Below, in pieces: positions 29,030 to 64,000 of a stretch of DNA of 64,000 bases. The DNA is taken from assembly GCA_963513935.1 (NCBI GenBank), contig OY740766.1:4543861-4607860 (forward strand), in the 5' to 3' direction. The DNA comes from Aphrophora alni (taxonomy: Eukaryota > Arthropoda > Insecta > Hemiptera > Aphrophoridae). A program made the translations under genes and the position numbers. The notes beneath the pieces are model-generated. The model was not told the DNA's origin. It saw only the letters and a program-made list of their open reading frames with translations, and searched no databases. Positions within the stretch are counted from its first letter, which is position 1. Every line of letters starts with the position of its first letter.

Positions 29030-29785
29030 GTCAAACGTCTTAGGTGGAAACATAGGTGGAGAGTTGGGGGAGTGACTAATCAGAAACAAGCTAAACGAGT
29101 TTTAAAGAGGCCAAAAGAAAGAAAACCGAAAAAATTGGTGGAGAGATGAGGGAGTGACTAATCAGGAACAAGTTAGACGAGTTTTAGATAGGCCAATAGA
29201 AAGAAAACCGACTACATGGGTGGAGAGAAAGGGAAGTGACTAATCAGAAACAAATTAAACGAGTTTTAGATAGGCCAATAGATAGGAAACCGGAAACATA
29301 ATATATGTAGAGAGAAAGGAGAGTGACTAATCGTAAACAAGTTAAACGAGTTATAAATAGGCCAAAAAAAAAAGAATTCTGAAAACATGGGTGGAGAGAG
29401 GGGGAGTGAATAATCAGAAACAAGGTAGACGATTTTTAAATAGGTTAATAGAAAGAAAACCGAAAACATGGGTGGATAAAGGGGGAAGTTCTAATCAGGA
29501 AAAAGTTAAACGAGTTTTAGATAGGCCAATAGAAAGAAAACCGACTACATGGGTGGAGAGAAAGGGGAGTGACTAATCAGAAACAAGTTAAACGAGTTTT
29601 AGATAGGCCAATACAATAATTCTGAAAACATGGGTCTCCAGAAAGGGGAGTGACTAATCGTAAACAAGTTAAACGAGTTTTAGATAGGCCAATAGAAAGG
29701 AAACCGAAAACATGGGTGGAGATATTTGGGAGTGACTAATCAGAAACAAGTTAAACCAGTTTTAGATAGGCCAATAGAAAGTACT
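29030..29785 (+). repeat. Minisatellite, nine units of 81-87 bp
   Basis: The landmark AGTGACTAATCAGAAACAAG recurs at about 29074, 29152, 29235, 29320, 29406, 29488, 29568, 29650 and 29732. Five of the spacings are 81-82 bp (27 codons), so part of it stays open and translates as repeats of KRVLDRPIERKPTTWVER. No start, signal or flanking exon supports a gene. Confidence 0.85.
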
Positions 29786-33277: not shown

Positions 33278-33988
33278 TACAATATACAAGAAATCGAGAT
33301 ACATGAAGATAAAAAATATTGTTGTGCTGTTTTTCTTGATGCTGCACAGGCTTTTGACAGGGTGTGGCATGAAGGCATTGCTATTAAGCTTAGTGGATTA
33401 TTACCAGATAATTACTGTAGACCGTTAGAATCATATCTTGTGGGTCGACTGTTTTGCGTTGTTTTTGGGGACGCTAGATCAACCTTCTATCCCATATGGG
33501 CTGGAGTGCCTCAGGGCAGTGTTCTCGAACCAATTTTGTATTTGTTATACACAGCAGATATTCCTACCACTAATAATAATACAACTGTTGCCACGTTTGC
33601 GGACGACACAGCAATATTGATCAATGGTGAGACTCAAGCTCAGGCAACTGACCATCTTCAAAGTTGTCTTGACCGGGTAGCGGAATGGACTTGTGACTGG
33701 AAAATCAAACTCAATGAACAAAAATCAACACATGTTACATTTGCTTTGCGACACGTAGATAATAGGCAATGTGTTTATATAAATAACAAGCTAATACCGC
33801 AACATGATTCGGTCAAAAAAGTAGAAATGATTCACCTTAAAATACGTCAAATGTACTGGCTAATTGTCAGGAAATCGCAACTGGACCTTTATAATAAGCG
33901 ACTACTTTATTTAACAATAATCAGACCAATTTGGACATACGGAGTGGAACTTTGGGGATGTACAAAATATTTAAATAGCGATAAATAG
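33278..33988 (+). mobile_element. Jockey-type non-LTR retrotransposon reverse transcriptase fragment
   Basis: An open frame runs from after a stop near 33275 to TAA at 33988. It shows the RT blocks FLDAAQAFDRVWHEG (first catalytic Asp), GVPQGSVLEPILYLLYTADI, TFADDTAIL (catalytic Asp pair), WKIKLNEQKS and, at the end, IIRPIWTYGVELWG. Between SVKK and KIRQMYW the usual YLG...W..H block is missing in frame, which indicates an internal deletion. Both ends are truncated, with no endonuclease, no ORF1 and no poly(A) tail. PQGSVLEP has Glu where Gly is normal. Confidence 0.88.
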
Positions 33989-35443
33989 GCCTACATTTAC
34001 GGTGTAGCTAATTATTAAACTTATGATAAAGTGTAATAGAATAATAAACTTTAAATGTTATTTTTGACATTAAAATTTTAACAATAAAAATGGTAAAACA
34101 TCACTGCAGAAGCTTGGTCCTCCAACTCCAAAACCAAATAAAAACCAACCAAAATTAATATTCACCAAAAATTTCAGTTAGATCAATTAAAAGAACTAAG
34201 GACGACGGTTTTGAAAAAAAAAAAGAAGTTTTTATTTCAACAAGGGTCAAAACTTGTACCATAAACATTTCCACAACGTAAACAGTATTTGTTAACATCA
34301 TGGTATTAATGCATCAATACAACTCATTTTTTACAACTCACGAGCAAACTGTTTTTATACAATATTAACTTCAGAAGATTATACGATTAATTTTAAATCG
34401 TAATATAATTCTAAAGTTCATGGCTAATTGGAAACTCTTAGAAATGTTAAACAAGAGTGTAAGAAAAACCTTAGATTTAATTTAATAATAAATTTAAATC
34501 AGCTGTTTAAATAGTTAACACTGAGCTAAACTTTGTTATATACTGGATGACTCTGATAATTCTTTTGATATTAATTAATGCACTCCTTTCTGCTCATATG
34601 TTTCGAACAGAATTTTCAAAACATTGAGGAGATGCAAAGTGTCCACTTACCTAATTTCATTAAGTTTATTCTGTAACCATATTAGAGTGTTTCTGTGAAT
34701 AAGGGAAAGTTTTGGGCTATATATTTGTGTATTTATTAATACTATAATTTCAGTTGTGTATATTAAAATAAATTAGATTTTGTGGTTTTATTAAATTAGT
34801 CAGTTCTTTTTGTGTATACTAACCACTATGATATTATTAACGTTTCTCCATTTATTTAAATGGAAATTTGTTTGAACTTTTGAGGAATCTGTAGACTAGA
34901 ATTTGTTATTTAATTTATGGACAACGTATATTTTTTACATCCCCACAATAACTAGATAATTTGAAATGCTGGTTTAGAATTGTTTAACAAACGTAACGCT
35001 TTTAAAATTAAATATAATATACAGGTTATATTTTATACCACACGGGTGGTGTACGTCAATTTCGTCCATAATACCACCACGACTTCTGAAATGATTAGAA
35101 ACTTTTATTTCAAAGAAAGGGGATGAAATAGTTTTACATTTCACCATTAGAATCAGCACTGTCCTAACAATCAGTATTGATATTCCTTTTTGTATGTAGC
35201 TTTAAACTAATGACGCCAGATAGTAGCAGCATTCAGGAGAAGGTAATAAATCTTCACAAGTTAGTGGAGTCCAAGAGGTTTACTTCGCTCAGATAAAAAT
35301 AAAGTAGAATATGTTGTTATATTTGTTACCTTTTGGGTTCCATCATTCATCCTTTTTAAAATAAATTAAATATTATAAGTAATAAAAAAGTAATAATTAA
35401 ATTACCTTTGGTTTCCGTCAGGTGACTTCTTTTTATATACACT

Positions 35444-35475
35444 TACGCGTTTCGAAGCGTACGCTCCATCTTCAG
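35444..35475 (-). ncRNA. Hammerhead-ribozyme-like motif in Penelope 3' end
   Basis: On the minus strand: CTGAAGA (CUGANGA core), a T, a self-complementary stem II centred on GCGTACGC, GAAA, then CGCG and the TA cleavage step. The A-T pair closing CGCG makes the very short stem III typical of Penelope hammerheads, which act as dimers. Stem I is only about 3 bp (ACT/AGT). Confidence 0.55.
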
Positions 35476-36200
35476 AGTTCTATTATCTTTTTCACTCGAT
35501 TGTGGTCGTTATACATTAAAATAACACATAAAAAACACACGGACACTACATATAATATGTTTATAAATTAATGCATCGCTTATGATAACGCGACACTTGC
35601 GATGCGTATCACATCAATGTCCTAGGACAACTAACGTCTCGTATTTATTGTATGTTTATTTAAGAATACTTCTTGGACCTTAATTGCCGTGTCGTATATC
35701 TTGTTGGAAGAGAAGTTTAGTTGGTCGTTCAACAGGTTGTGTGAGTTATACTTAAATGATTTATATATCTCATATTCTTCAAGCGCGTCCATATATTTCC
35801 CCTTTCTGCATATATGTAGCGGTTCTAAGTTGGTTTCAAAATCTGTATAGGAGTGGTTTTCGTCAATGAGGTGTCTTGCAAAATTTGACTTATTGCTGTT
35901 AATATTCTTTTTTGGCAGATGTTCTTTAAACCTTTGGCGAAAAGCTCTTCCCGTTTGGCCTATATAGAACTTATCACATTGGTCACATTTCAGTCTATAA
36001 ACTCCCGTTTCTAGCTGCAGATGTTTGTCATGTTTATGACTGAGCAATTTCTTAATATTGTTGTGGGTTCGAAATGCCATAGTAAGATTGAGTTTTTTAA
36101 AAAAATTTTATAATATTGCTGGTGGTATATTTCCGTATTCACTTGCTATGAAGGTCTTCTTATCTTTATGTTCAAGTGGTCGTCTAATTTTCTTTTGTTT
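35444..36200 (-). mobile_element. Penelope-like element remnant: GIY-YIG endonuclease end plus hammerhead motif
   Basis: The minus-strand frame (36080 to 35631, extended upstream through one TAA near 36105) reads TFIASEYGNIPPAIL, stop, then NFFKKLNLTMAFRTHN, the RT-endonuclease linker of Penelope-like elements. The GIY-YIG domain follows: GVYRLKCDQCDKFYIGQTGR, FRQRFKEH and FARHLIDENH. The RT upstream is degraded beyond recognition. Downstream at 35475-35444 is a hammerhead-ribozyme-like core, as found in Penelope pseudo-LTRs, followed by A/C-rich DNA resembling 2250-2340. The element is non-autonomous. Confidence 0.85.
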
Positions 36201-36499
36201 TTTACTTAATAATTAATTTATCGATCATGTGACTTGTAAAACCATTGGTTAGGTTAGACTGTCATGTTCGGATTTTACCTAAAAAATACAAGTAGTTGTT
36301 TTTATGGGTCTGTATAGGAATGTTAAATTGTCTTGGCAGATTAAAGGGTTTTATTCAGTAGAATTAGTTTGTTTGAAACAGTTGATATCACTACTTTTTT
36401 GACGTCGTTTAGGCCCCAACAGTTCTCGTCAATGTGTAAGTATTAAAAGTTTCCACTTGCTTCGCTCATACAAGTGTCATGGCGTAGTGGGCTTCGATG

Positions 36500-39400
36500 C
36501 TCTACTGGCAAAGCTTATATTGCTGACTAGGTCCTGTTGGATCTAGTACTTATTCAAATAATGTTCTTGTACATATTGAGCCACAACACTCACTCCCATG
36601 ATAAAGTTAATGTGCCTATATTTATTGTGTGGACACCAACGTGTTTTTATACTTTGTATATACGAGTAAAAGAACAAATAAAAACTTCTTACTCTGTCAC
36701 AAATACTTAGTATAGAGGAAGTTACATATTTGGTGAAATATAGATATAGTGTCCAGTGAATAATATACGTTTTGGGTTAGTCAGATGTCAAATAAACCTT
36801 CTTGTCGTTATCTATGCAGTGCCAAACCTCGAAGTACGATTTTAATTATATTTGGTTGGTATTTTGGGTCATTTTATTTTATTTTTTTATAGATGACTCA
36901 AAATTTATCCATATGGGAAAACAATAACGAATTTCTCAATATTGGCTCTACCGATTTCAGCAAAATCTGAAGCTGGATTACCACTAGTGTACAAAATCAC
37001 AAGTAAAAAACGATTACGCTTTAATGATAATCGAGATAAACTTACAAATTGACCTTGAAATTGTTTTACGTTGAGGAGACGTAACGACACAAGAAAAAAG
37101 CTAGGTTAGGTTTTAATTAAATAAATAAAATTATTTTTCTAAATCGACGTCCTTTTCTCATTTCCCTTTTGACTCACAGGGAATTTTTCATTTCAATTTT
37201 GTTTTGAGGAACGGTAGAATGTCTAACGATATATTTTCTATTCACCAACATAGTAGTTTTACTTGTTTACCTGAGGATTGACATGCTTTACACCATTCTC
37301 TCAGGTATCGATTTCAGAATGTTGAACAAGGCTCAATAGTTAAATATTTGTTGATACTGAGATTGCATTCCAATAGATTTACAATATTTTGGTATAACAC
37401 TTTTATAAATATTGTGGCTTATAATGGTCAAATACATCCCGATTTAGGACTTTTTTTAAATTGTTACTTTCCCAAAAAATTGTCCAACTCTGTTATTATT
37501 AGGAAATTGGGAAAGTGGAAATTTAAAAAGTCTCAAATTTAACAAAAGAATAAATTTCCATAATAAAAATTGGGGGTTAAAATTTAAAAAATAAAACCCC
37601 TATATTTAATGAAACTTAACACTATTAAAATTGATTTCCATGTCATTTTAGAGCTTACAAAAATAAGAGGAGTTCCCTATTAAAACTTTTTGTACCCCCA
37701 ATGGTTCAAAAGTTCGCTATTGTAACATTTTTAGGTGGGAATCAATTTTTTGTAGGCCTATCAAACGTTTAATTTTCTGAACTTTAACGGCATGTAAACT
37801 ACCAAGAATAAAATATTCCTAAAATATTGTTTTACACCTGAAAAGACCATAAAATACATAGTGTTCCATAAAAAATTTCAAAGTTGGTCGTCATATTGGA
37901 AAATGGCGGCAAGTTTCAACATTTGACAAAACGGATTTTTAAACTTCATTGAAAAGAAAGGAAAGTCCCCCATTTAAAGTACTCTATCATATTTATATTC
38001 AAAAGTTAGCTATTGTAACATTTTACGTGAGGCACCTAGTACATAATAAATTTGTATGCTATTTTAAACTCAAATCTGCTTACGAAGCAAATACAATTTA
38101 AATTTAATTATGAAAGAACAATTACCAATTTAATACCCAATTATTAATCCACACTTAAAAATAACAAAGGGTTTTAAAGTTAAATAGCAAATCTCAAGGT
38201 TTAATATGTCAGTAATAAATGTAATTTGAATGTTATCGAAAAACGAAATTTATTGCAATATTTGATTTTATGCATAAAACTCCTATAAATTAGACACGAA
38301 ATGCCTTAATCCCACTTTCTAATATAGATTGGTCCACATCAGTGTTTTTAGGTAAGACGAATTTTTGTTTCAATTTAACATTTATGGGTAATATTCTATA
38401 GCCTGGTAAGTAAATTCTGTAGCCCGGTAAAGCAAATTCTATAGCCTGGTAAAACAAATTAAAATTTCGATATATTTTTCAGGACAATCCAATATTAAAC
38501 ATATATTTATGTCTCTAGTTTAACTAACTTTTGTGGATCGTTTATTAATATATTGTCAAATATGTAATATTTTTGTTTCTTCTTTAATTTTTTTCTTAAA
38601 CAGTATAATGAGTATTGTGTATATATGTGTGCAAATAGGTTTGGGTGTGTGTTTGTGTGAGTGGTATTTTCACTTTACAAGGTTTATAAAGTGGTCAAGT
38701 AATAACAATTTTTTTTTTATATTATTGTTATTTTAGTCCTAAAATGTGTTTTGGAAAGTTCAATATGGAAGTCATTTGTATTTAGTTGGATAATTAAAAA
38801 ATTATTATTATTTTGGTTTCAAGTTGTTTTGGAAAGTGTTTTAAGTATTAAAAAAAAGTTATCACCTCAGTGTAGTTTAACTTACCATTTAAGTCAAATT
38901 ATGTGATTTCTAAATATGTTTTTAAAAACAATTACTTTACATAAGTGGGACTTATGGGCTGATGGTTTTTCTTGAGCTAACTTTTGATCAAGACCAGGTT
39001 TTGATCTAGGGGTAGTATTATTTCAACGTAAAAATCATTAGAAAGATCAAGATGTGTTTTTAGTTTTGTTGAGACAATTTTTTATTTAATGTTGAAAGAA
39101 TTGTTTGTAATCAACTCATGTTTTGTAATGGATTCGTAAAGAAGGAACAATAAATTTCATATTATTTCTTCACATCTATATTAATATTATAAATAGACGA
39201 ATTTTGCGCGTTTGTATGAATCATCTTAAAACTATTAAATTGACTTCGAAAAATCCTTCACAGTTGGAAAGTTGATTTATTTCCATAAAACTATATTAGT
39301 TTAGTTTAAAGTAAATACTTCAAAACCATTGCACTCACCTGTAAAAGTTTAAAAACTAATTGTCACGTAAAATACTCGTTCTATAGCAGTTAATCGAAAT

Positions 39401-41100
39401 CCAAAAATGAACCACCATTCGGTTCATTGAAAAAATATTCATATATTTAAATAAGAGCATAAACTTGCTGCACTTGTGTCATTAATATGTCCTCGTCATT
39501 GATTAAAATATTGTTTTTAATGACGGATGATTATTTTTAGTTATTTTGTCATTTATTTCAATTGCAATTTTGCTCATGGGTTTGGGTTATTAATATACAC
39601 GCTTCACTAAAAGAAATCGGTATGGCCGAATGACATACCAAATTTTATTACAATCAGTTGACTACAAAGCACGCACTTACGACAGACAGATAAGATGAAA
39701 ACAAATATTATTCCAAAAACCAATGGCCGTCAAAACGGGTGTATATTCAAAAACAAGACAGATTTTTCTTAAATCCATAACTTGCTCTATATTTGAGAAA
39801 GTAAAAATAGGGATAGACTGGCAAATATTATGTGAAACACAATACGATAATTTTGTTCTAGAGATGAAAGGAGTGTTAATGAAATGTGATACGTAACAAT
39901 TGGGTGGGGGGGATTTTGTTTTCTGATCATTAATATATTTTTTTTAATGTCAAATTTGTTAATTGTTACTGAAACACTAAAAATATTATCAACAAATATT
40001 CACCGCCATGTTTTGAAAAAAAAATAAATTATTTAAATATTTTTTCCTAATAGAAATTAATGTTTTCAACTTTTTGTTGTTTTTAATTCTTGTTATTTGT
40101 ATTACATTTTAAAATTTGTTTTAATATTTGTATTATTTTAATATGTATACTTTTAGATATACTAATGTCAATAAAAATAAAATATTCGTGTTAATTTTAT
40201 TGCTTAACTAGAACTCTAAAGTTTGAAGATTTTTTACTAGATAAGTTTTTTATTTCTTACATAAACGTGGTATAGAGAAGGTATAAGATGGGTCAAACAG
40301 TCATGTCGAGTTATTGTGAGTTTATCTGTTGGTAGGTCCTTCTAGTAAAAAAAAGTAGTTTTGTAATTATTGTCGGTCTGTTTGTCATCAATTTCTGAAG
40401 TCTGTGAAAGTATCTACAGTATAACCGATTTTAATCAAATCATATTTTTGTCATATCTCGGAACTTTTTTTTCCATTTTATTCATAAGTCAATATTTGAG
40501 GGTAGCCGTCGTAACAAACTACAAAAATACATTTCATCAAAGTTTGTTCAAGTGTTAAAAAGCTTCAAACAAAAACAATGTCGTTATATTTCGACAATTC
40601 CCAGTTCGTCAGTTATTGGTAAACAGCAAAAACATCCGTTGTTAGAAAAGTTGTAATTGTTCAAAATCAGCTCAACCGATTTCATTAATTTTAGTAAAAT
40701 GTAAAAATCTAAAGACCTTAAGTTGTCTGTAAAATTGCAATATTTTGATGTTTCAGGGATAATTGACAAAGAAATTTTAATGAAGTTCAATCGTCGACGT
40801 TATGTTTGATAAAAACAAAACAAAAATACAATTTTGATCAACATGGTTCATTTTCACTCTGTGATTGACAAATACCCTACTGATATATTTGTTTATGATT
40901 AGCTTTGGATAATTTATATTTGGTTTTGGGTAAATCTTATTAAGGAAGTTTGTGCAGCTTTTATTGTTTGATGATGTTGTAGGAGAAAAACAAGGTACTG
41001 TATCAACAAGTTTTTATGTTAACTGTTAACAGAAAATTATAGTTTTATTTTGTCAAAAAAACTTTTAGCATTAACAACAATCTTACTCTTTATGATTTCA
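36500..41100. other. Upstream region of cathepsin B-like gene 1
   Basis: No supported gene. The 5' UTR exon and promoter of gene 1 should lie in or near this stretch, since a splice acceptor sits immediately before the start codon, but neither could be identified. TTCAAAAGTTxGCTATTGTAAC occurs twice (about 37700 and 37995), marking a diverged duplication. Confidence 0.45.
38392..38460. repeat. Three-copy tandem repeat, about 22-25 bp
   Basis: ATTCTATAGCCTGGTAA recurs three times with small changes. Confidence 0.7.
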
Positions 41101-41104
41101 GACA

Positions 41105-48868
<7,764 letters not shown>

Positions 48869-48927
48869 TTCCATTGTATGATTAGATGTTACAGGTTATG
48901 AACTTAGTATTTAATTAGCAAGATTGC

Positions 48928-48933
48928 AATAAA
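48928..48933 (+). promoter_or_regulatory. Polyadenylation signal of cathepsin B-like gene 1
   Basis: AATAAA lies 60 bases after the stop codon, followed by a second A/T-rich AATAAATA copy and a T-rich stretch around 48955. This is the normal distance for a short 3' UTR. Confidence 0.6.
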
Positions 48934-49141
48934 AATAAATACATAATTCACTGATGTTTTTTATTATTATTTGATATTTCGTTCTGTTTAAAGTTTATTG
49001 CACTCTGTAATATAAGTTAAGGGTGACGTATTTCTTTCCTTGACGATCCTTCAAAACATTTGCCAATGGTCTAAAAAAATTGCTATCACTTTCTCAGACA
49101 CATAGAGAAATACATGGTGTAAAAACATTGCGCAATCTCTC

Positions 49142-49156
49142 TCACACACGCGCGCG

Positions 49157-49196
<40 letters not shown>
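49142..49196. repeat. (CA)n microsatellite
   Basis: A CACACACGCGCGCGCACG start followed by a pure CA run, about 270 bp after gene 1. Confidence 0.9.
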
Positions 49197-49198
<2 letters not shown>

Positions 49199-50069
49199 CA
49201 GAAATACACGGTAAAAACATTTATCTATCTATTACATACACTCTCTATATAATCAAAATATTAACCAAACAAAACTATTGTTGTTGTTAAAAATATCAGT
49301 TCTGTAGTTGTAGGTGAAATAGTGAAAATAAACCATGGACACCGTCTAAGGTTTTGTACATTATTATTGTAAATCATATTTAAACATGGTCAAATTGCTT
49401 AAATTGTGTTATAAGTCTTCTATGTATAAATATTACTCGAGTATCGGGACTGGTGCACTTCGTTATATGCACAATTGAATATGATTTCAGAAAGTATGAG
49501 CATTATTTGTGAATGTTATATATTGTGGAGCGAGAAGTTTTTGAAGTACGGCTTCTTGTAAACTAGATTTTTAGTTTTCCTGTCTGATGATAAAAATACT
49601 CTGTATTTTTTCCGGACTCTTGAACCTACTAAAGGATGGCCATGAAGCAAAAAGTGCACAAATTAAAACCAACAAATAATGTTTCTTGTTTAGGCTTTAA
49701 TAATTAAGTTAGCAAAACAAACGTTTATAGAGCATTTCAGTCTTCTAAATTCAAAGGGATAGTCATTTGGGATCATAGGAATGCATGGAGTACAGTTTCA
49801 CCTTTTGCAAATTCAGTTATAAACGCCTCTGTAATATTGGCTTGCTATGCTGAAATTCTAAAACAGGCACCATTACAATGTTTTGGAGATCTTAAGTTTC
49901 GTAGGAAAATTATTCCCGTGTCCTATTTAAGAATCATTTTATGAGGGGGAATTCCAGGAGAGTTAAAGAAACTTAGAAATTACTGATGGCTTCTTTTTAA
50001 ATTTTAAATTAAATTTTCAAAATCTGAAAATTACAAATATATAAAAACTCACTGAAAAATTGAGTTTCA

Positions 50070-52450
50070 TTTACCACAGTATCTCTTTCTGAACAACTTT
50101 TGTGGTTCCTTTAGGGATTAAGATGACCAGATTAGTGGCAGAGGTAACTTTGTAACACGGACGTAGAAATGTCCATATGAGAAGAGTCCTTTCTAAAGTC
50201 GATGCCAATTTTGATAGTGGCTCTTCTGAGGTTTATTGATAGTCATGTCAAAGCACACCTGAGGAATGTATTCTTTTAAACTCAAACGGATATTCCATTG
50301 GTATTAGCGGTATTCTTGGGATAAAAACTATCACCTCCGACAATTTCTAATCATCACTGTGCTTTTATTGTAGTCTAGTTCCATTGCATAATTTAAGCTG
50401 ATTAAAACGGATTAAGTAATAATACAAGTGCTCCGATTTTAAGAAAAACTTGATGTTATGGAAGATCAGAAGGATTCAGAGTATTAGGAAATTCTACGGA
50501 GTAGTGGAGGGCACGTCTTGTCCTCCGAAAGCCTTTAATGAAATGTCATTACTTGCACTGATTTATCGTTCTTCGGAGTTAAGATGGCACCCTCACACAA
50601 CCGTTCCATACTTCTATCAGGATATATTCTACCAGTTAGCTCTAGAAAGAAGGTATCTACTGAACCCAAATCTTAAGGAGGTGACTTTACCTTCCAATGA
50701 AGGGTAATTTCCATCGCCTATTTTGAGTGCGGATGTATCACCTATTAAATGAACCCTCATAGTTTTGTGAAGTGCAAAATTCCGGATATGTGTTCACAAA
50801 TATGAAACCTTTAAGTACGATGATTTTAGTTCATCTACAATTTTACCACTACATATGACGGGTGAAGTTTGTCAAAAATCTCCAGCTAACAGTCCACTGA
50901 CAACTTTTATCAAACTATGGTTTTCTCTTATACCTTTTAATGTTCTGTTGAAAGCCTCGAATCCGCCATTGTGGGCAATTGTGCATTTATTCCTAAATTT
51001 ACACTCTTTCTAAACTTGAGCTATGTTACTCTGTTTGGACTCAAAGCAGAGGTTTACCTCCTTAAATCAATGTAGCAGCAATACATGAAGAAGTAACATG
51101 TAAGACTATATCACAATGTTTTAATATTCTGACAGTAAGATATTTATTAAAAATGTCTTATCGTCGCCCCCAGTACAGTCTCTAAGACAAATGAATGACC
51201 AATCTCCAGTATGTAGTCTCTATTTTGTAAGGCAAAACATATTGATAGCTGAGGTAAAACATACTGTTGTAAGCTTTACCTAACAAAGATAGCACTATAT
51301 TTACAAGAAAAACTAAGCATTTATTCCATACTTCCCTGAAAATTAAGTGAAAATCCTCATGTTGTATTCTAACTCCACTCCATGCCGTATATCCTCTGAA
51401 TGTCTATCTTTATTTCTACCCCTAATTCTTAATCATCTGAATATTGACATGTTATCAACATAACTTCAAAAAGTTATATTCTGATAAATGGAATATCACA
51501 ACATGCAGCTTCTTCCATAGTTACTTCCTTTCGTCTTTTAGCAAGCTTACATACTGACTGGTATGTTGGTTGAATTGTACCATTAACAGTCTTTAATTCT
51601 AAGAAAGATGTTGGGCCTCAGACTTTATGAAGAATAAGGAGTAGTAAAACGCTTATTATACTCGGTGTTATTGAGGTGGGTGGTTTTTACTATGCAGCCT
51701 TTGAAGTCATTTCGACTTTTTTTCTCTCAACTCTTTTATTTTACTATTCATAATAAGATGGAACTTCAACATAAAGAAGTAATTTTTGCAAAATCATCCG
51801 TTTTGGATAAATCAAAAAATCCTAAAAATGTTTTTTTTTGGTGAATAAATATTAACCATATTTGTCAAGTGATTGAAATTATTCAGGTTAAAATAGACAG
51901 TCTGGCCATTTTATAAACGCACGGCTAGATAAAGGCTGTCGGGAATCGCTCATGGGTTGGAAAAGCCAGAATTATCCATACAACCTCTGAGGTGCTGATA
52001 TATAGACCACTTTCATACAATTTGATTTCATCCTTTTAATATTAAAGACAAATTTTACAACATAACTTACTTTATTAACATATTTACGTATATATTTCAT
52101 AGATTTTACAGAGGTACAGCACTTCACGTTAATAGGAGCACCGAAAGTGAGTGAAATCACAGGGTTACTGACACTACTTAACAATTACCAAAGACCACAC
52201 CATTGATTTCAACAGTAAAATCGCAATCCCCTGGAGCTCTTCGTTGATACTTTAGGTAATCTGTCTTCTTCTGTTTGAGTTTCTTGAATGAGAGATCGAG
52301 GGACATTTTGATTGTTTTCGTACAGAGTGATCTGTTATTTAAATTACCTTAATACCCGTGGACCACATTGCCCTTCATAATATCACTAAGAAGAGGTATT
52401 TTCGCACAAATACCACTGTCTAATATATCGGGAGATTTGCGTTGCTGCAA
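50070..52450 (-). pseudogene. Broken Helitron Rep/Pif1-type helicase
   Basis: Reading the minus strand from about 52450 down, several frames give consecutive Helitron polyprotein landmarks. First come AKIPLLSDIMKGNVVHG and YQRRAP (MVHGPCG/YRRR region), then SVKSMKYIRKYVNKV at 51972-52184 (Rep C-terminal block), then GPTSFLELKTVNGTIQPTY (pre-helicase block). Next are SSCIAATLI (SSGIAATLL), CTIAHNGGFEAFNRTLKGIR (DECTMAHKxALEALxRTL), LLAGDF*QTSPVI (LLAGDFRQTLPVI), MRVHLIGD, LKIGDG, LCNGTRL, VFIPRIPLIPMEYPFEFKRI and CFDMTINKPQ. Many stops and frameshifts interrupt it, and the Walker B Asp-Glu is lost. It is a non-autonomous relic; the Helitron termini were not located. Confidence 0.85.
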
Positions 52451-53970
52451 CCAAAAAAAATTAGTAGATGAGGCAAACAAAGCTTTTACCATTCGACAGA
52501 CTATATGTAACAACGCATTTCCCCAAACAAATACCCCTTGGTTAGCAATGCCAGTAACATCTTAACTTTTGTGCAAATACCCCATCGTGACGATCGTGGA
52601 GCTTTTTCTCGGATAGTAATACATTTGCAATAGCTTTCCATTGAGCGATGGAACTGCATTTTTTTTATAAAGCGATGATGACCTAACGGTTTTTCAATTT
52701 TACACTTTAAGATAAAAATAACCTTTGTTGTCTAGAACGATAACCATAGATTGCCTTTGCTATAATTGTGTATGACAATATCATCACACTTAATTTAAAA
52801 TAGAGTAACAATTCAAATATGACAAATCACTCAGACCTTGAAAACATTTTTACAACTTTTCTTTTACACTTGTTTTTTTTTGCAGGATAAATACTCTATG
52901 CATTTTCATAACTGACTAGTTTCCTCAAACTTGTAATTTCAAAAATCAGACAGTTTTAAAGTTTATTTAACGTAATATCTCAAGTTACAATTAATGTGCA
53001 ATAAATGCAATGCTGATAACACATAGGAGCAATAATACTTTCAAACAATAGACATTGTAAGTTGTTATTAGATTGATATTTTTAATTATTGTTTCATTAT
53101 AATTTCTCCACTAAAGTAAATACTATACTAGCTTTTTATTGCAGGTAGATTTTTTATAGTTCAATGCAACTTTAATTTGTCATTATGAAAACTTACATCT
53201 GAATACGTTGTAAAACGTTCAGTTCAACTAAATGCATCATGTAAAAGAAATCACGATAAAGTGGTGCTTAAAAACAATCAATAAGAAAGTTTTTATTTTA
53301 GCGATTTTTTTCTAGACGAATGAGTAGCATAGAGACTTTATTTTCTCACATGTACGTAGAAGTAAAGACTAACCAAAAACAGTGTGCAAAATATCAAATA
53401 GGACTATATTTGACTCTGGAATAATGAGGCAAAATACGTGAAAATTAATTCTGATTGGCGTCTAAAATACTCGATTTATTTCAAATACAAGTACGCCAAT
53501 CGAGATTGGATTCTGTGTCTTCAGTAGTGCAAATATCGGATTAGTGAGATCCAACAAAATTTCTTAATTGATTCCAAGAGAATCAAAAGTTTTGGCCGTC
53601 CTGAAATATCCCATTTAAGAGGTCACACCGTGTTCACGACCTACTACGAAGATCAGCGACAAAGATATCTCGAGTAAGCCCAAATTTCGAGGCACTTTTG
53701 AGATCACCAAAGTAAGATGGACGTTTCAAAAATTTATATTCCTTTGAATTACTGTATTAGAAAATACAAGATATTAGTTTAGAAATTTAAAATGGTAAAA
53801 GCGAAACGTTTTTGTTAATAAAAAATAAGGTTTATATTTATTTAAGTTTAGAAGATGAAAACAAATAGGAGGGGAGAGATGATAAATTGCTATAAATATA
53901 AAATATATAAACTACAGAAATTAAAGTGAAATATCTTCAAACTCGAGACGCAATAAAAATTCCTTCCATC

Positions 53971-55974
53971 AACGATAAATAAACGTTTAACGTAACGTTC
54001 AATAAACGTCCTATCGTTCAATGAAAGTTCAACGTAATGTTCAATAAATGAACGTTAAACGTAATGTTCAATAAACGCTCTATCGTTCAATAAACGTTTA
54101 ACGTACCGTTCAATGAACATTAAACGTTATGTTCAATAAACGTCCTATCGTTCAATAAACGTTTAACGTAACGTTCAATAAACGTCCTGTCGTTCAATGA
54201 AAGTTTAACGTAAAGTTCAATAAACGTCCTATCATTCAATGAACGTTAAAAGTACTGTTCAATAAACGTCCTATCGTTCAATAAACGTTTAAGGTAACGT
54301 TCAATAAAGTCCTATCGTTCAATAAACGATTACGTAACGTTCAATAAACGTCCTATTGTTCAATGAAAGTTCAACGTAATGTTCAATAATCGTCCTTACT
54401 TTCAATGAACGTTAAACTTAATGTTCAATAAACGCTCTATAATTCAATAAACGCCCTACCGTTCAACAAACGTCCTATCGTTAAATAAACGTGATGTCGT
54501 TCAATAAACGTTCAACCTAATGTTCAATAAACGCTATCGTTCAATAAACGTTCAAAGTTACGTTCAATAAACGCCCTTTCCTTCAATAAATGTTTAACGT
54601 AATGTTCAATTAACACCTTTTCGTTCAATAAACGTTCTAATTTACGCTCAATAAACGCCCTATCGATCAATTAAAGTTCAAAGTTACGTTCAATAGACAC
54701 CCTTTCGTTCAATAAACGTTCAAAGTAACGCTCAATAAACGCCCTTTCGTTCAATAAACGTTCAAAGTTACGTTCAATAAACGCCCTATCGTTCAATAAA
54801 CGTTTAACGTAATGTTCAATAAACGCCCTTTCGTTCAATTAACGTTCAAAGTAATGTTCAATAAACGCCCTATCGTTCAATAACGTTTAACGTAATGTTC
54901 AATAAATGTTTAACCTCATGTTCAATAAACGCCCTTTTGTTCAATTAACGTTCAAAGTAATGTTCAATAAACGCCCTATCGTTCAATAACGTTTAACGTA
55001 ATGTTCAATAAACGTTTAACGTAATGTTCAATAAACGCCCTTTTGTTCAATTAACTTTCAAAGTAATGTTCAATAAACGCCCTATCGTTCAATAACGTTT
55101 AACGTAATGTTCAATAAACGTTTAACGTAATGTTCAATAAACGCCCTTTCGTTCAATAAACGTTCAAAGCTACGTTCAATAAATACCCTTTTCGTTCAAT
55201 AAACGTTCAAAGTAACGTTCAATAAACGCCCTATCGTTCAATAAACGTTTAACGTAATGTTCAATAAACACCCTTTCGTTCAATTAACGTTCAAAGTAAT
55301 GTTCAATAAACGCCCTATCGTTCAATAACGTTTAACGTAATGTTCAATAAATGTTTAACCTCATGTTCAATAAACGCCCTTTCGTTCAATTAACGTTCAA
55401 AGTAATGTTCAATAAACGCCCTATCGTTCAATAACGTTTAACGTAATGTTCAATAAACGTTTAACGTAATGTTCAATAAACGCCCTTTCGTTCAATTAAC
55501 GTTCAAAGTAATGTTCAATAAACGCCCTATCGTTTAATAAACGTTTAACGTAATGTTCAATAAACGCCCTTTCGTTCAATTAACGTTCAAAGTAATGTTC
55601 AATAAACGCCCTATCGTTCAATGACGTTTAACGTAATGTTCAATAAACGTTTAACGTAATGTTCAATAAACGCCCTTTCGTTCAATTAACGTTCAAAGTA
55701 ATGTTCAATAAACGCCCTATCGTTCAATAGTCGTTTAACGTAATGTTCAATAAACGCCCTTTCGTTCAATTAACGTTCAAAGTAATGTTCAATAAACGCC
55801 CTATCGTTCAATAAACGTTTAACGTAATGTTCAATAAACGCCCTATCGTTCAATAACGTTTAACGTAACGTTCAATAAACGCCCTTTCGTTCAATTAACG
55901 TTCAAAGTAATATTCAATAAACGCCCTTTCGTTCAATTAACGTTCAAAGTAATGTTCAATAAACGCCCTATCGT
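53971..55974 (+). repeat. 2-kb minisatellite built on TTCAATAAACG
   Basis: The 11-12 bp core GTTCAATAAACG recurs roughly every 20 bp, alternating with linkers such as TTTAACGTAAT, TTCAAAGTAAT and CCCTATC. Combinations of these form larger periods of about 80-120 bp that become more uniform toward the 3' end. Each core contains AATAAA on the plus strand. No ORF runs through it. It ends abruptly at a CT microsatellite. Confidence 0.92.
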
Positions 55975-56141
<167 letters not shown>

Positions 56142-56210
56142 GGGTTAAGTGGAAGAGAGGACCTGATGGTCCTAACTTCGCCCAGAATAAAGGCTCAAAT
56201 CAAATCAAAT

Positions 56211-56214
<4 letters not shown>

Positions 56215-56290
<76 letters not shown>
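56215..56290. repeat. Compound (CT)n(AT)n microsatellite
   Basis: About 19 CT then about 18 AT units, preceded by CAAAT repeats (56198-56215). Confidence 0.93.
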
Positions 56291-56292
<2 letters not shown>

Positions 56293-56769
56293 AGGAGATG
56301 GAGAATCAAAATATTATTATAATTAAGGAACAATGGCCGATCAAAACATAGTCAAAGCTATTGAACAATTCTGTGAATTTTTACAAAATAATTCAGATTG
56401 ATAAATTTAATTCAGATTGATGTATAGCTAGAAATTAAATTTAGAAAATGTGTACTTTCTTGGTTTAGTTTGAAATACTCTCCTTTTGTTGGTTCAATAC
56501 AATACGTCAGCTTTGTTATGATTATAACCGTATAAATTAGCGATGTAATTGAGTTATTCCGCTTCAACATTTCCAACAAAACATTTTAGTTCAGTGAAGT
56601 GTTTTAGTGAAATTGAAATGGAAACTATTCGTATTGAGCTTGAGGATTATTAAGTGAACTTTAATCAAAATGTAATATTAAATGTGTTAAATTGTTATCA
56701 ATGTGGTTATTTGAAACTAGAGAATGGTAATTTATAGTCTAATAAAACAAAAATTATCATCTTTTTTGA

Positions 56770-57115
56770 AAAAAACTTTAAACTGCAATTTTTCGTAAAC
56801 GCTTTGAGATTTTAAAGTGATTTTTTTCAGGGTTTACTATCTTTTAAATTCTGCATCTTGTTGTACATATAATTATTAGTGTTAAACTTTGAAATTTTAT
56901 TAAAAAATTACATCGAAATGTAATTACTATTACGATGAATCGGTAAGGAGATAAAGGCGTTTTAAAAAGTAATTACAAGACTTAGTGTGAAACGTTAAAT
57001 GTTAAAATCTGGCAATATAAACTGCAATTTATCGTAAACCATTTAAAATTTCAAAACGATTTGTTTCAGGGTTTACTCATTTTGAATTCTGCATCTTTTG
57101 AGACCCATATCATCG
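56770..57115. repeat. Diverged tandem duplication, about 235-bp spacing
   Basis: AAACTGCAATTTxTCGTAAAC, then TTTCAGGGTTTACT and AATTCTGCATCTT, occurs at about 56778 and again at about 57018. Non-coding. Confidence 0.6.
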
Positions 57116-58263
57116 GTTAACGTAAAGATTAAAAGTTTGTGTTTGTTCGTGGTGGTTTTGATAGTTAAAAGTGAAAACTGTACTAATATGAATTATTATG
57201 AAAAATTTGATTTATTTCAACATTTGTATTTGTGGATGATCGGATTAAAGTTTCCGATATAATTTATAATAATGTTTTAGAGCTAATTAGCTCAGAGCCA
57301 TAGTTGCGTCTTTGTAGCAGTAACAACGTTGCTCTGACGTGTTACCATTTTGTTATTTATTACCCGGCCATACTTGCTGCGTTTCTGGACCCAATTGGAT
57401 TCGTCTTTATCATCGGTATTAATTAAGATAGACCACAAAGTTTTGCAGAATTCTTCCCTCAGTAACCCTCAGGGGTTCACGTATAGGGAGTACTAGTGTA
57501 ACAATCCTGAACTGACTGGATGTATATATAGTACTGCATTCATTATATAGTCTTGTGTTAGAAAACTCGATTTCATATTTCTTGTTAGAACTCTCTAGGA
57601 AATTTCCTGTTGTCGCCCAGTGAAGTAATTGTAGTTTAGAGGTCTCTATTGTTTGATTTTTTCTTCCTTTTTCAAACGGTGACCGAAAGGTTTTTTCTGT
57701 TAAATGAGAAGAAAAAATGTAGTTCACGGCTGTTTGTATATACTCACCTTTTGTAAATTAAGATTTCCAGGAAGTGGGAGAGCAGGCAGTAGGTACACAA
57801 TTTTAAGTAGAACACATTATAGTGGTGTATATAATATGTATTTTTAAACATCTCGACGATACAAACAAAATTACATAAAGGAGATTTTTCTTAGACCTAT
57901 CTCTCTAAGTCTTAATTTTGGTTTTGAGTTATTAACGAAGTGGAAATTATTCAAGATTTGTAAAAAGATGTATGGTATCTGTTTTCCTTATTTCAAATGT
58001 TTGGGTACATTTACACAATAAACATTAAAAACTATTAAATTCCTATCAATAAACCAAATGACGATTGATTGTGTTAAGAAATATTGATGACAAAATTCTT
58101 AAATTTTAATGATATTTTGTAGTTGATAATTGAGATTTTTCCTTTCATCTCAAATTTTTGTTTCATTTATCTTGTTTTATCTAGCTGTTTAAAATTATGT
58201 ATCTCAAGACAAAATGTTCTATTTTAAATGTTTGACCTCCTACTCTTTCACCCTTGAAGTCCA

Positions 58264-58268
<5 letters not shown>

Positions 58269-58324
<56 letters not shown>
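58269..58324. repeat. Poly(A) tract, 56 bp
   Basis: An uninterrupted A-run, possibly the tail of an old retroposed copy, though no recognisable body precedes it. Confidence 0.9.
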
Positions 58325-58326
<2 letters not shown>

Positions 58327-59115
58327 TGACCTCATAGAAATATTCCTTCACTACAAATAAGATTGATGCAAACTGTGTTTAGCTTTCTTAATCAATAAGT
58401 TTTAAAAAATATGGAAGTTTCTATTCAGCTATTTTTATATAAGACTATAACTCTGCAGTGAGAAAATGGTGACAATTTATTCCTGAGGTAGGATCTATGA
58501 ACTGTCCATAGTCTTAGGTGATGTATCTATGGGAGATTGCTATATCCATAATTTATTCATTAGATATTGAACATCTTCAATCGACGCCATTTACAATCAA
58601 CTAGCAAACTCAGTACTTATACTTTTACGTTTATAACGAGGTCGCAACTTTAAGGAGTTCCTCACAGAAAATATACTCATGCATACAGCTATCCTTATTA
58701 TAATGTTCAATTAGTTTCTCTAATAGTTGTGTAGGACATTCGTGGATGCTCAGAAAGTGGGCGAAGAAGAAACTGAACATATCAATGGTGTAGGTAATCG
58801 CCTATCATTCTTCCTTAACATACAATGACATTTATTTGTACCCTTAGTGATACGATACCAATTGAGTCTCATTCGTTGTAGTAGTTTTGCAGAAGTATGG
58901 ATAGATTACTGTAAACAGATGCGTTGATCTAGTTGCTATGGTGATTTTTATACAAATGTAGATTTATTTCAAAGGCGCATATTTAAAATTAAAACTTACT
59001 TTTAGGTATATTTAATGTAACAGCAGATATTTCTAGTTGAAACTCCATATTCAAGGATTAAATAAAGCAATAAAGCTAAAGTTTCAAAAATATTTTAATA
59101 ATATAGTAAATGAGC

Positions 59116-59154
59116 TACAATTGTTTCGCCTTGCGGCACCATAGGGCTACTCAG
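59116..59154 (-). ncRNA. Degenerate hammerhead-like Penelope relic in the 5' region of gene 2
   Basis: On the minus strand: CTGA, an irregular insert, GCCGCAAGGC (stem II with GCAA loop), GAAA, CAATTG, TA. The second part fits the Penelope hammerhead; the CTGANGA box is disrupted. It lies about 90 bp before the splice acceptor of the giant exon, probably in a 5' UTR intron. Confidence 0.35.
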
Positions 59155-59244
59155 CATAGTTGCTTTATTTAATACTTACTTTTAGATTGAAAAAAAAAGA
59201 TTATTGTGGTTAATTGAAGTTTTTTGTTTTATTTTTTTCAGAAA

Positions 59245-62200
59245 ATGCAGCAGATGTTTGTCCTGAGTTTTTGCTTATTTCTAGTTTTGAAACAGAAAGT
59301 TGAAGCAGATGATATAACATCTGTAATCGATAACATATCTTCAACCAATTTAATACCTCAAGGTAATGAAACATCTGCAGCCAATATATTACCTATAACG
59401 ATTGAGCCACCTTCAGTCAATCTAGTGTTTCAAGCCAATGAATCATCTACAACCAATTTACTACCCAGAGCCAATGAAGTAACAAAATTCAATGAAACTT
59501 CTTCAGCCAATTTAGTAGCTCGTGCCAGTGAATTAGATGAAGTCAATACAACATCATCAGCTAATCTAATGCCTCCCATGAATAAAATACCTAAAATCAA
59601 TGAAACATCCTCAACCACTGAAGTACCTAAATCCAATGAAGTGTCTAAAGCCAATGAATCTTCAGCGAACCTAGTACCTCAAGCCAATGAACTAAATAAT
59701 ACCAACGAAACATCTCTAGATAATATAGTACCTCGAGCAAATGAACTAACTAAAACCAACGAAACTTCTTTAGATAATCTAGTACCTCCGGCCAATGAAG
59801 TACCTAAAATCAATGAAATATCCTTAACCACTGAAGTACCTAAATCCAGTGAAATATCTACAGCAAATATAGTACCTCGAGCCAATGAATTAACTAAAAC
59901 CAACGAAACTTCTTCTTCTTCTCATCTAGTACCTCCGGCCAATGAAGTACCTAAAGTCAATGAAACATCATCAACCACTGAAGTACTTAAATCTAAAGAA
60001 ATATCTTCATCCAATATAGTACCTCGAGCCAATGAATTAACTAAAATTAACGAAACATCTTCATATAATTTAGTACATCCGGCCAATGAAGTACCTAAAG
60101 TCAATGAAACATCATCAACCACTGAAGTACTTATATCTAAAGAAATATCTTCATCCAATATAGTACCTCGAGCCAATGAATTAACTAAAACCAACGAAAC
60201 TTCTTCTTCTCATCTAGTACCTCCGGCCAATGAAGTACCTAAAATCAATGAAACATCATCAATCACTGAAGTACCTAAATCTAATGAAACATCTTCAACA
60301 AATATAGTACCTCGAGCCAATGAATTAACTAAAATCAACGAAACATCTTCATATAATTTATTACATCCGGCCAATGAAGTACCTAAAGTCAATGAAACAT
60401 CATCAACCACTGAAGTACCTAAATCCAATGAAATATCTTCAACAAATCTAGTACCGCGAGCCAATGAATTAACTAAAATCAACGAAACATCTTCATATAA
60501 TTTAGTACATCCGGCCAATGAAGTACCTAAGATCAATGAAACATCCTCAACCACTGAAGTAACTAAATCTAATGAAAGATCTTCAACAAATCTAGTACCG
60601 CGAGCCAATGAATTAACTAAAATCAACGAAACATCTTCATATAATTTAGTACATCCGGCCAATGAAGTACCTAAGATCAATGAAACATCCTCAACCACTG
60701 AAGTAACTAAATCTAATGAAAGATCTTCAACAAATCTAGTACCGCGAGCCAATGAATTAACTAAAATCAACGAAACATCTTCATATAATTTAGTACATCC
60801 GGCCAATGAAGTACCTAATATCAATGAAACATCCTCAACCACTGAAGTACTTATATCTAAAGAAATATCTTCATCCAATATAGTACCTCGAGCCAATGAA
60901 TTAACTAAAACCAACGAAACTTCTTCTTCTCATCTAGTACCTCCGGCCAATGAAGTACCTAAAATCAATGAAACATCATCAATCACTGAAGTACCTAAAT
61001 CTAATGAAACATCTTCAACAAATATAGTACCTCGAGCCAATGAATTAACTAAAATCAACGAAACATCTTCATATAATTTATTACATCCGGCCAATGAAGT
61101 ACCTAAAGTCAATGAAACATCATCAACCACTGAAGTACCTAAATCCAATGAAATATCTTCAACAAATCTAGTACCGCGAGCCAATGAATTAACTAAAATC
61201 AACGAAACATCTTCATATAATTTAGTACATCCGGCCAATGAAGTACCTAAGATCAATGAAACATCCTCAACCACTGAAGTAACTAAATCTAATGAAAGAT
61301 CTTCAACAAATCTAGTACCGCGAGCCAATGAATTAACTAAAATCAACGAAACATCTTCATATAATTTAGTACATCCGGCCAATGAAGTACCTAATATCAA
61401 TGAAACATCCTCAACCACTGAAGTACTTATATCTAAAGAAATATCTTCATCCAATATAGTACCTCGAGCCAATGAATTAACTAAAACCAACGAAACTTCT
61501 TCTTCTCATCTAGTACCTCCGGCCAATGAAGTACCTAAAATCAATGAAACATCATCAATCACTGAAGTACCTAAATCTAATGAAACATCTTCAACAAATA
61601 TAGTACCTCGAGCCAATGAATTAACTAAAATCAACGAAACATCTTCATATAATTTATTACATCCGGCCAATGAAGTACCTAAAGTCAATGAAACATCATC
61701 AACCACTGAAGTACCTAAATCCAATGAAATATCTTCAACAAATCTAGTACCGCGAGCCAATGAATTAACTAAAATCAACGAAACATCTTCATATAATTTA
61801 GTACATCCGGCCAATGAAGTACCTAAGATCAATGAAACATCCTCAACCACTGAAGTAACTAAATCTAATGAAAGATCTTCAACAAATCTAGTACCGCGAG
61901 CCAATGAATTAACTAAAATCAACGAAACATCTTCATATAATTTAGTACATCCGGCCAATGAAGTACCTAATATCAATGAAACATCCTCAACCACTGAAGT
62001 ACTTATATCTAAAGAAATATCTTCATCCAATATAGTACCTCGAGCCAATGAATTAACTAAAACCAACGAAACTTCTTCTTCTCATCTAGTACCTCCGGCC
62101 AATGAAGTACCTAAAATCAATGAAACATCATCAATCACTGAAGTACCTAAATCTAATGAAACATCTTCAACAAATATAGTACCTCGAGCCAATGAATTAA

Positions 62201-62973
62201 CTAAAATCAACGAAACATCTTCATATAATTTATTACATCCGGCCAATGAAGTACCTAAAGTCAATGAAACATCATCAACCACTGAAGTACCTAAATCCAA
62301 TGAAATATCTTCAACAAATCTAGTACCGCGAGCCAATGAATTAACTAAAATCAACGAAACATCTTCATATAATTTAGTACATCTGGCCAATGAAGTACCT
62401 AAGATCAATGAAACATCCTCAACCACTGAAGTAACTAAATCTAATGAAAGATCTTCAACAAATCTAGTACCGCGAGCCAATGAATTAACTAAAATCAACG
62501 AAACATCTTCATATAATTTAGTACATCCGGCCAATGAAGTACCTAAGATCAATGAAACATCATCAACCACTGAAGTACCTAAATCTAATGAAATATCTTC
62601 AACAAATCTAGTACCGCGAGCCAATGAATTAACTAAAATCAACGAAACATCTTCATATAATTTAGTACATCCGGCGAATGAAGTACCTAAGATCAATGAA
62701 ACATCCTCAACCACTGAAGTAACTAAATCTAATGAAAGATCTTCAACCCATGAACTACCTAAACCCAATGAAAAAGCCTCTGCATATGATACATCTCTGA
62801 TAACTGAAACACCTCCCAAAAACGATATATTGGTAGAGAGTAGGATATCTCCTTTCATTGAAAAAATTTCAAAGAAAGAAAAGATTTCTGCGTTCATAAC
62901 TTCAACTCAGAAAAAACTCGGATGTAATAGAATCGCGTATATTATAAACACTAATCGAAAGAACAAGTGGAAG
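59245..62973 (+). CDS. Cathepsin B-like gene 2, giant repeat-encoding exon (1,243 codons)
   Basis: The start ATG at 59245 follows an acceptor (TTTTTTTCAG ending at 59241) in an AAAATG context, the same layout as gene 1. Residues 1-21 form a signal peptide (MFVLSFCLFLVL core). Residues of about 22-1170 are low-complexity tandem repeats of 48 residues, each made of 18+18+12 blocks such as NLVPRANELTKINETSS. They are rich in Ser, Thr, Asn and Glu, lack Cys, Trp and Gly in the core, and carry about two NET sequons per 48 residues. The last 70 residues return to a cathepsin-type propeptide (FIEKISKKEK...LGCNRIAYIINTNRKNKWK), equivalent to that of gene 1, and splice out in phase 0 at AAG|GTAATA. 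I infer a secreted, heavily glycosylated mucin-like arm ahead of a cathepsin fold. The single open frame of 3.7 kb argues for coding. Confidence 0.87.
59310..62757 (+). repeat. In-frame 144-bp coding tandem repeat with 576-bp higher-order period
   Basis: The basic unit is 144 bp (48 codons). Units at the 5' end (to about 59900) and the last few are diverged. The middle consists of near-identical blocks whose equivalent landmarks recur at 60930, 61506 and 62082, that is every 576 bp (four units); the block before them, from 60210, is 720 bp (five units). No frameshift occurs in about 24 units. The pattern indicates recent duplication of whole four-unit blocks under selection for frame. Confidence 0.9.
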
Positions 62974-63629
62974 GTAATAAATAGTCTACAAATTATCAGA
63001 ATTATAAGAAATATTAAAATATTTCATTGAATTTTACTTTTTGTAAATGTTGGAGCACGTTCCTAAAACTGCCATTGACGCAAATAAATGGTAGATGATA
63101 AGTTTAAATATTTTAAAATTATTGAAGTTTGAAACTTGTGATATCCTATTTTAAGATGAGGTGTCGGACAAATTGTAAAACTTATACGCAACAAGGCCAA
63201 AGTATGCACTTATCAAGTTTGATCCAAATAGTTCTACTCGTTTGGACTGAACAGACATTAAATAGACATCATTTTATAAAAAAGCCGACTTTTTTTGTTC
63301 TGTTATAAAGTTTCTCTTTATAATTCAAATAATTTCACAGCTCTACATAACTTCATGTAAGTGTTTTTTAAGACAACCTTTATTTCGATAAAGACGGGGG
63401 AGTAAATAAAGGAATAATGGCCATCAAAATAGCTCAATCTCACGTAACTTTTACTTGTTTACTAGTCCAAACGTCTGTACGTTTAAACCAATTTAGCTAC
63501 ACCTTTCCCCTTTATGCGTTAAAGAGTCAAGAGATATAAAATAATTTACAACATCGATATTTAAATTATGTTAAACACTAACACGTTCATATTAGTCTGA
63601 GAATTTATATTATGTTATTTAAATTCCAG

Positions 63630-63839
63630 GCAATTCCAGATCTGCACGTTCCAGTCTACTCTAAAGTCGGTTACCAGGGACCTAGTGGACTAGTGTTGGA
63701 TATTCCTGAGGGAAATGAACTTGAATGTCCTCCAATAGGCTGTGTATTACCACAATTTTACGATAGTCGCAAAGCCTACCCGATGTGTACAACTCTTCAA
63801 GAACCTACTGACGAAGGCTGTGGTTGCCGTGCCAGTTGG
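63630..63839 (+). CDS. Cathepsin B-like gene 2, exon with dead active site (gene continues past window)
   Basis: The acceptor is ATTCCAG|GCA and the donor is TGG|GTATAG. Both are phase 0, at the same boundaries as exon 2 of gene 1. It encodes AIPDLHVPVYSKVGYQG, aligned with AIQEPYIPPYSKIGYVK of gene 1, then CPPIGCVLPQFYDSRKAYPMC and TDEGCGCRASW. The catalytic Cys is Ser as in gene 1. The oxyanion-hole Gln of the QG motif is Glu here. Exons for the rest of the fold must lie to the right of the window. Confidence 0.87.
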
Positions 63840-64000
63840 GTATAGAATATAACACTTTATGTATTACTAAATGTATTACATTTTGCTGGATTGAATAAGT
63901 AGGAAAGACCTCATGGTCTCGTCATTGGTGGACATTAGATGTATGAATAAGAATTGCTGTGATCAACGTAGTGAGATAAACTCGAAATTAAAAACAAAAA

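Follow-up and report, generated by a model that had tools for sequence, protein, structure and literature searches.

A Predicted Cathepsin B-like Gene of Aphrophora alni with a Long Sequon-rich Repeat Arm and Serine at the Catalytic Cysteine Position

Cathepsin B has the most gene expansions among cathepsins across 47 hemipteran species (PMC12653315), and in the aphid Myzus persicae cathepsin B genes occur in tandem arrays (PMC5304397). In one clade, most copies from the pea aphid (A. pisum) and from D. noxia have an incomplete peptidase domain (PMC5304397). Two Myzus proteins, CathB3 and CathB6, increased aphid fecundity even when the catalytic cysteine was changed, indicating that non-catalytic cathepsin roles exist (PMC12266115). 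A weevil protein with serine at the active cysteine, Sl-CathL-CS of Sphenophorus levis, bound sugarcane cystatin and raised the degradation of substrate by a true protease (PMC8583781). The aphid copies act without catalysis, and the wider question is how a dead protease acquires a new role. We analyzed a 64,000-nucleotide stretch of the hemipteran Aphrophora alni (GCA_963513935.1, contig OY740766.1, positions 4,543,861 to 4,607,860 of the forward strand), hereafter the window, in whose numbering all coordinates are given. The window holds a cathepsin B-like gene, gene 1, and the first two coding exons of a paralogue, gene 2, in which a repeat arm of ~1,180 residues very probably joins a cathepsin-like exon.

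The reading frame that begins at the ATG at 59245 was open through 62973, giving 1,243 codons without a stop. The exon (59242..62973, plus strand) starts three nucleotides before this ATG, downstream of the acceptor TTTTTTTCAG, and ends at a phase-0 donor, AAG/GTAATA. A hydrophobic leader (59245..59310, residues 1-22) was judged by eye to be a signal peptide, as an earlier sequence-only reading of this DNA had also proposed. It is followed by a degenerate low-complexity part (59311..59724, residues 23-160) with nine N-x-S/T sequons of varied form and one truncated unit at 59671, and then by 21 full repeat units of 48-49 residues (59725..62751, residues 161-1169), which are partly grouped in four-unit blocks of 576 bp. 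A distal unique part (62752..62856, residues 1170-1204) has PKPN at residue 1172, the single occurrence of this motif in the exon, and the exon closes with a propeptide resembling that of gene 1 (62857..62973, residues 1205-1243), which includes Cys1227, the only cysteine of the exon beyond the leader. The arm lies entirely within this exon; the earlier claim of a long single-exon arm holds, and the arm measures ~1,180 residues. None of 20000 mononucleotide shuffles left a unique part of the exon (1,572 nt, homogenised copies excluded) free of stops, and the other two plus-strand frames contained 89 and 225 stops. On the minus strand, four open reading frames of 191-274 aa overlie the arm (60210-62906) and one frame has only nine stops; we set these open reading frames aside as genes, since they are probably a by-product of the repeat.

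Gene 1 (41105..48868, plus strand) encodes 420 aa in six coding exons (41105-41368, 42625-42846, 43609-43815, 45283-45415, 46856-46975 and 48552-48868) separated by introns that are all GT..AG, and its product matched Peptidase_C1 (E 1.9e-39) and a cathepsin B structure in the PDB (1.4e-54). In both genes the first coding exon begins 3 nt ahead of the ATG, just after an acceptor, encodes in turn a leader, a linker and a propeptide, and ends after Trp-Lys at a phase-0 donor, which supports the earlier reading that the arm exon splices at the same site as gene 1. The linker is about 40 residues long in gene 1, whereas the arm of gene 2 takes up ~1,180. When the last 39 residues of the arm exon were aligned with the gene 1 propeptide, the score was 58 against 19.9 +/- 4.2 for shuffled sequences, and 0 of 2000 shuffles reached it. 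Residues N80 and W87 of gene 1 fall at propeptide positions that vary little or not at all, and gene 2 matches gene 1 in this region, while the Pfam propeptide family Propeptide_C1 (PF08127) matched neither gene. The second coding exon of gene 2 (63630..63839, plus strand, 70 codons, phase 0) encodes the end of the propeptide and the start of the mature fold, with CPPxxC and GCGC motifs, between an acceptor ...TTCCAG/GCAATT at 63630 and a donor AGTTGG/GTATAG at 63839. The protein encoded by this exon was 42-43% identical between the genes; by itself, the 70-aa piece from gene 2 had no Peptidase_C1 match and gave weak matches to PDB cathepsin B entries from E 0.053.

The two genes also share four cysteines (gene 1/gene 2: C72/C1227, C125/C1276, C130/C1281 and C156/C1307), and none of 40 comparison cathepsins, hand-picked from 114 matches, had cysteine at any of these columns. 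The C72 and C156 columns were gaps in all 40 sequences and the C125 column in 34, so the shared residues lie partly in shared insertions. A cysteine within four columns of C72, C125 or C130 was found only in the Bemisia protein, near C125; C156 was excluded from this check because a conserved cysteine adjoins it. The set spans the proposed junction, with one cysteine before it in the propeptide and three after it in exon 2, which argues that the arm exon and exon 2 belong together. None of three donor patterns tried inside the arm exon found a match. On this sequence evidence we are highly confident that the exon at 59245-62973 splices to 63630 within one gene. A blastn comparison of 34001-49000 with 49001-64000 at 1e-3 found no DNA-level match between the two loci, suggesting that the duplication that gave rise to them is probably old.

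In gene 1 the catalytic cysteine is replaced by serine (Ser161) and the catalytic histidine by lysine (Lys329), while the asparagine is kept (N350). Exon 2 of gene 2 ends in ...GCGCRASW, which likewise places serine at the position of the catalytic cysteine; the histidine, the asparagine and the occluding-loop exon of gene 2 fall outside the window. The armed protein is therefore likely to lack cysteine-protease activity, and the view that it is a pseudoenzyme is supported by the cysteine replacement in both genes. Gene 1 nevertheless retains the sequence pattern of cathepsin B. The occluding loop of cathepsin B carries a His-His motif; gene 1 has no such motif, which is present somewhere in 27 of the 40 compared sequences, and its loop is shorter. 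Eight of the 40 lacked the catalytic cysteine, and five of those with a residue at the histidine column lacked the histidine; the two changes coincided in the Bemisia and Adelges proteins, two Caenorhabditis proteins and P0059.

The period found by Tandem Repeats Finder was 144 bp, repeated 21.0 times with 92% matches over 59722-62747, and 18-bp periods (six residues, for example ANEVPK) were nested within it. There were twenty full units of 48 aa and one of 49 aa, plus a truncated unit of 18 aa, so the first count of about 24 units has to be lowered. The 21 full units comprised 10 distinct sequences, and the length differences observed between units were multiples of three. Among four 576-bp blocks, the two that begin at residues 546 and 738 were identical (0/576), and the remaining pairs differed at four or eight positions. 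Elsewhere in the window the arm repeat had nothing beyond three matches of 14-19 bp (E 0.37). Occurrence of PKPN in the gene 1 linker as a seed of the repeat is only suggested, given that 21% of protein shuffles scored as high, which is not significant, and 0.9% of DNA codon shuffles did.

The arm exon contained 54 N-x-S/T sequons, 49 of them NET. The first sequon was present in 21 of 21 full units and the second in 20 of 21, while a third NEx site formed a sequon in only four of 21. Over the whole arm, 54 sequons compared with 41.4 expected from composition shuffles, 1.05% of which were as high. The degenerate part of the arm, where the forms NIS, NET, NES, NTT and NNT all occur, had nine sequons where 5.0 would be expected (3.1% of shuffles reached this number). 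These patterns suggest that the arm may have been under selection for N-glycosylation. Mucins have Ser/Thr/Pro-rich tandem repeats with Ser+Thr above about 40%. The arm (residues 23-1185) has tandem repeats but only 27.9% Ser+Thr and 7.7% Pro, and the label 'mucin-like' first given to it was thus loose. Because of this low Ser+Thr content and a borderline charge-hydropathy value, it is best described as a sequon-rich, Asn/Ser/Thr/Glu-rich repeat arm.

In a tree of the comparison cathepsins, gene 1 grouped with the Adelges and Bemisia pseudo-cathepsins (84/74), within a wider group of eight (91/94) that also included Parthenolecanium, Cimex and Riptortus and whose five organism-named members are all Hemiptera. 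The hemipteran Daktulosphaira fell outside this group on a very long branch. Together with the TTAGG arrays described below, the tree by itself would point to a sternorrhynchan bug as the likely origin of the DNA. By E-value the best matches of gene 1 were P0001 and P0002, followed by Riptortus and Cimex, and no protein match exceeded 43% identity. The protein searches covered about 5.8 billion proteins and depended on shared 5-residue words. No cathepsin B relative of 866-2756 aa from a eukaryote turned up among 2003 candidates, in a search that used gene 1 exons as stand-ins and could miss a diverged orthologue. The single candidate of that kind, P0115, is bacterial, with PF00112 and an fn3 domain, and was set aside by annotation alone. 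Homologues of the arm numbered 0 among the best 7979 candidates by shared words, which were those scored, and eight pattern matches in viral contigs yielded none that was confirmed.

Our preferred explanation, held tentatively and at somewhat less than even odds, is that gene 2 encodes a secreted, non-catalytic cathepsin B-like protein whose N-glycosylated arm stays attached as a tether while the dead fold serves as a binding module. Splicing of the leader, arm and propeptide exon to 63630 would give a cathepsin B-like protein that is likely secreted. Self-removal of the propeptide is not expected of an enzyme with serine for its catalytic cysteine, and the arm would be retained unless cut by a different protease. 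Disulphides among the shared cysteines, of which one belongs to the propeptide and three to the start of the mature part, could clamp both pieces even after such a cut. We put retention of the arm on the mature protein only just short of an even chance, and the shared cysteines offer a direct biochemical test of it. The arm itself may have grown from a 6-residue motif in an ancestral linker, first into 48-residue units and then into 576-bp blocks; the tiers are visible in the DNA, and unequal exchange would be the process behind them. The fold may be held in saliva, sheath or gut secretion and bind a partner there, a role that we regard as possible but rather doubtful. Still less probable is the fullest version, a new secreted class in which a dead cathepsin B fold has its propeptide locked by lineage-specific disulphides and uses it to anchor a giant N-glycan brush, perhaps building the salivary sheath or gut lining, by convergence with the Plasmodium protein SERA5.

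Several observations weigh against this explanation. The window ends before exons 3-6 of gene 2, so the name cathepsin rests on the propeptide, the 70 aa of exon 2 and the paralogue. With copies collapsed, the sequon excess was weak (20 against 15.1 expected, 8.9% of shuffles as high), and within a single block there was none (8 against 7.3, 47% as high). The ratio pN/pS among nine distinct units was 0.56 (20 of 21 units, the 49-residue unit being excluded), a mild constraint under which the amino-acid sequence may drift, and variable columns were spread evenly over the codon positions (11/12/11). By charge-hydropathy the whole arm was barely on the disordered side (0.419 against 0.429) and residues 23-142 were on the ordered side (0.453 against 0.434). 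Gene 1 has 17 cysteines, including C312 and C418 at columns where 0 of the 40 others have cysteine, and lacks one loop cysteine that its relatives have; the odd number means that disulphide pairing cannot be deduced. It was also flagged as a long branch of unsure placement in a tree whose bootstrap had not settled. Finally, only mature-domain CathB peptides were seen in Myzus oral secretions, so that propeptides can be lost, though the same paper cites another study in which a propeptide was detected (PMC12266115).

This last observation fits a course in which another protease cuts off the arm and propeptide, leaving two products, a repeat glycopolymer of the sheath or gut lining and a separate pseudo-cathepsin. 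Such cutting has a precedent in SERA5, which is processed by another protease, PfSUB1 (PMC7132891), and a different aphid CathB has a propeptide that reportedly acts in the plant (PMC12266115). The propeptide cysteine and the three in exon 2 would, however, hold the pieces together through disulphides, should these form, and we consider two separate products unlikely. We give similarly low credence to the idea, part of which was raised in the sequence-only reading, that the inactive cathepsin works as a decoy, taking up cysteine-protease inhibitors (cystatins) of a plant or host and so sparing active cathepsins, with the arm adding only solubility or lifetime. The cystatin binding of Sl-CathL-CS and its aid to a true protease (PMC8583781) speak for it, and the shorter loop of gene 1 with its missing HH could open the cleft; but a retained propeptide would cover that cleft, the window does not reach the loop exon of gene 2, and the arm would be left unexplained.

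A more skeptical account treats the arm as a product of slippage and unequal exchange with little function, tolerated in the flexible linker of a relaxed pseudoenzyme. The three nested repeat tiers, the identical pair of 576-bp blocks, the pN/pS value and the weak sequon excess are all in line with it. Set against them are the 3.7 kb kept open, unit lengths that differ by multiples of three, the retention of two sequons per unit in contrast to the variable third NEx site, and the varied sequon forms of the degenerate part, and we hold this account to be improbable. The identical blocks could also reflect an assembly error in copy number. That the array is mis-assembled, or that the arm exon is not joined to 63630 at all, appears very improbable, because the homologous propeptide, the phase, the acceptor position and the cysteine set span the junction and the internal donor patterns went unmatched.

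The window contains other features as well. Interstitial arrays of the TTAGG type, the insect telomere motif, occur at 26721-27177 (91.4 copies) and 46028-46247 (44.0 copies), the latter inside the gene 1 intron between 45415 and 46856. The end of exon 3 of gene 1, together with its donor region, recurs in the following intron at 43951-44048, with 81% identity over 98 bp. Between genes 1 and 2 there is a large degenerate minisatellite (53978-55974) with units of the type GTTCAATAAACG, and an 82-bp minisatellite of 8.9 copies occupies 29048-29781. A reverse transcriptase fragment (RVT_1, 33278-33985, plus strand, E 3.6e-23) and a GIY-YIG fragment (35631-36104, minus strand, E 2.6e-5) are likely from mobile elements. 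Rfam and tRNA scans of the window gave no matches.

Roughly 10 kb separates the paralogues; the linker of one is 40 residues long, the other has the ~1,180-residue arm in the same exon, and the pair illustrates how an exon for a propeptide can expand into a large extension that is secreted. Among hemipteran proteins, the closest in their loss of the catalytic cysteine were Bemisia tabaci P0041, Adelges cooleyi P0017, Parthenolecanium corni P0047 and Daktulosphaira vitifoliae P0088, which have S, D, D and G, respectively, at that position, and in the first two the histidine is also replaced, as in gene 1. Unlike gene 2, these four are only 336-356 aa long without a long arm, and they have none of the four shared cysteines; the one Bemisia cysteine lies only in the neighborhood of C125. 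TINAG and TINAGL are secreted cathepsin B-like proteins with serine for cysteine, in which a somatomedin B domain precedes the cathepsin part; in contrast, neither gene 1 nor the pieces of gene 2 showed such a domain at E values up to 1. In Myzus persicae the tandem cathepsin B genes include CathB9, which lacks the catalytic cysteine, an arrangement like that of genes 1 and 2, while the mature domain of CathB6 begins at residue 61 and the available text mentions no repeat arm (PMC5304397, PMC12266115). Sl-CathL-CS resembles gene 2 in having serine at the active cysteine and was without protease activity, but it is of the cathepsin L type, is expressed mainly in the midgut and has no arm mentioned in the available text (PMC8583781). 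Literature searches for repeat-bearing or armed cathepsins found no such cathepsin B in the titles and beginnings of abstracts listed. The statement that no described cathepsin has such an arm thus holds for cathepsin B within the searches made here and was overstated for the papain fold, given SERA5. That protein, like gene 2, has a papain-like domain with serine for cysteine and N-terminal octamer and serine repeats, belongs to a clustered gene family and has a disulphide that joins its processed pieces (PMC7132891). Its repeats are of their own kind and it has an extra C-terminal fragment, and we see the likeness as one of convergent design and claim no homology. By this analogy the overall plan is not unprecedented, and gene 2 appears as a real, unusual form of a kind already known.

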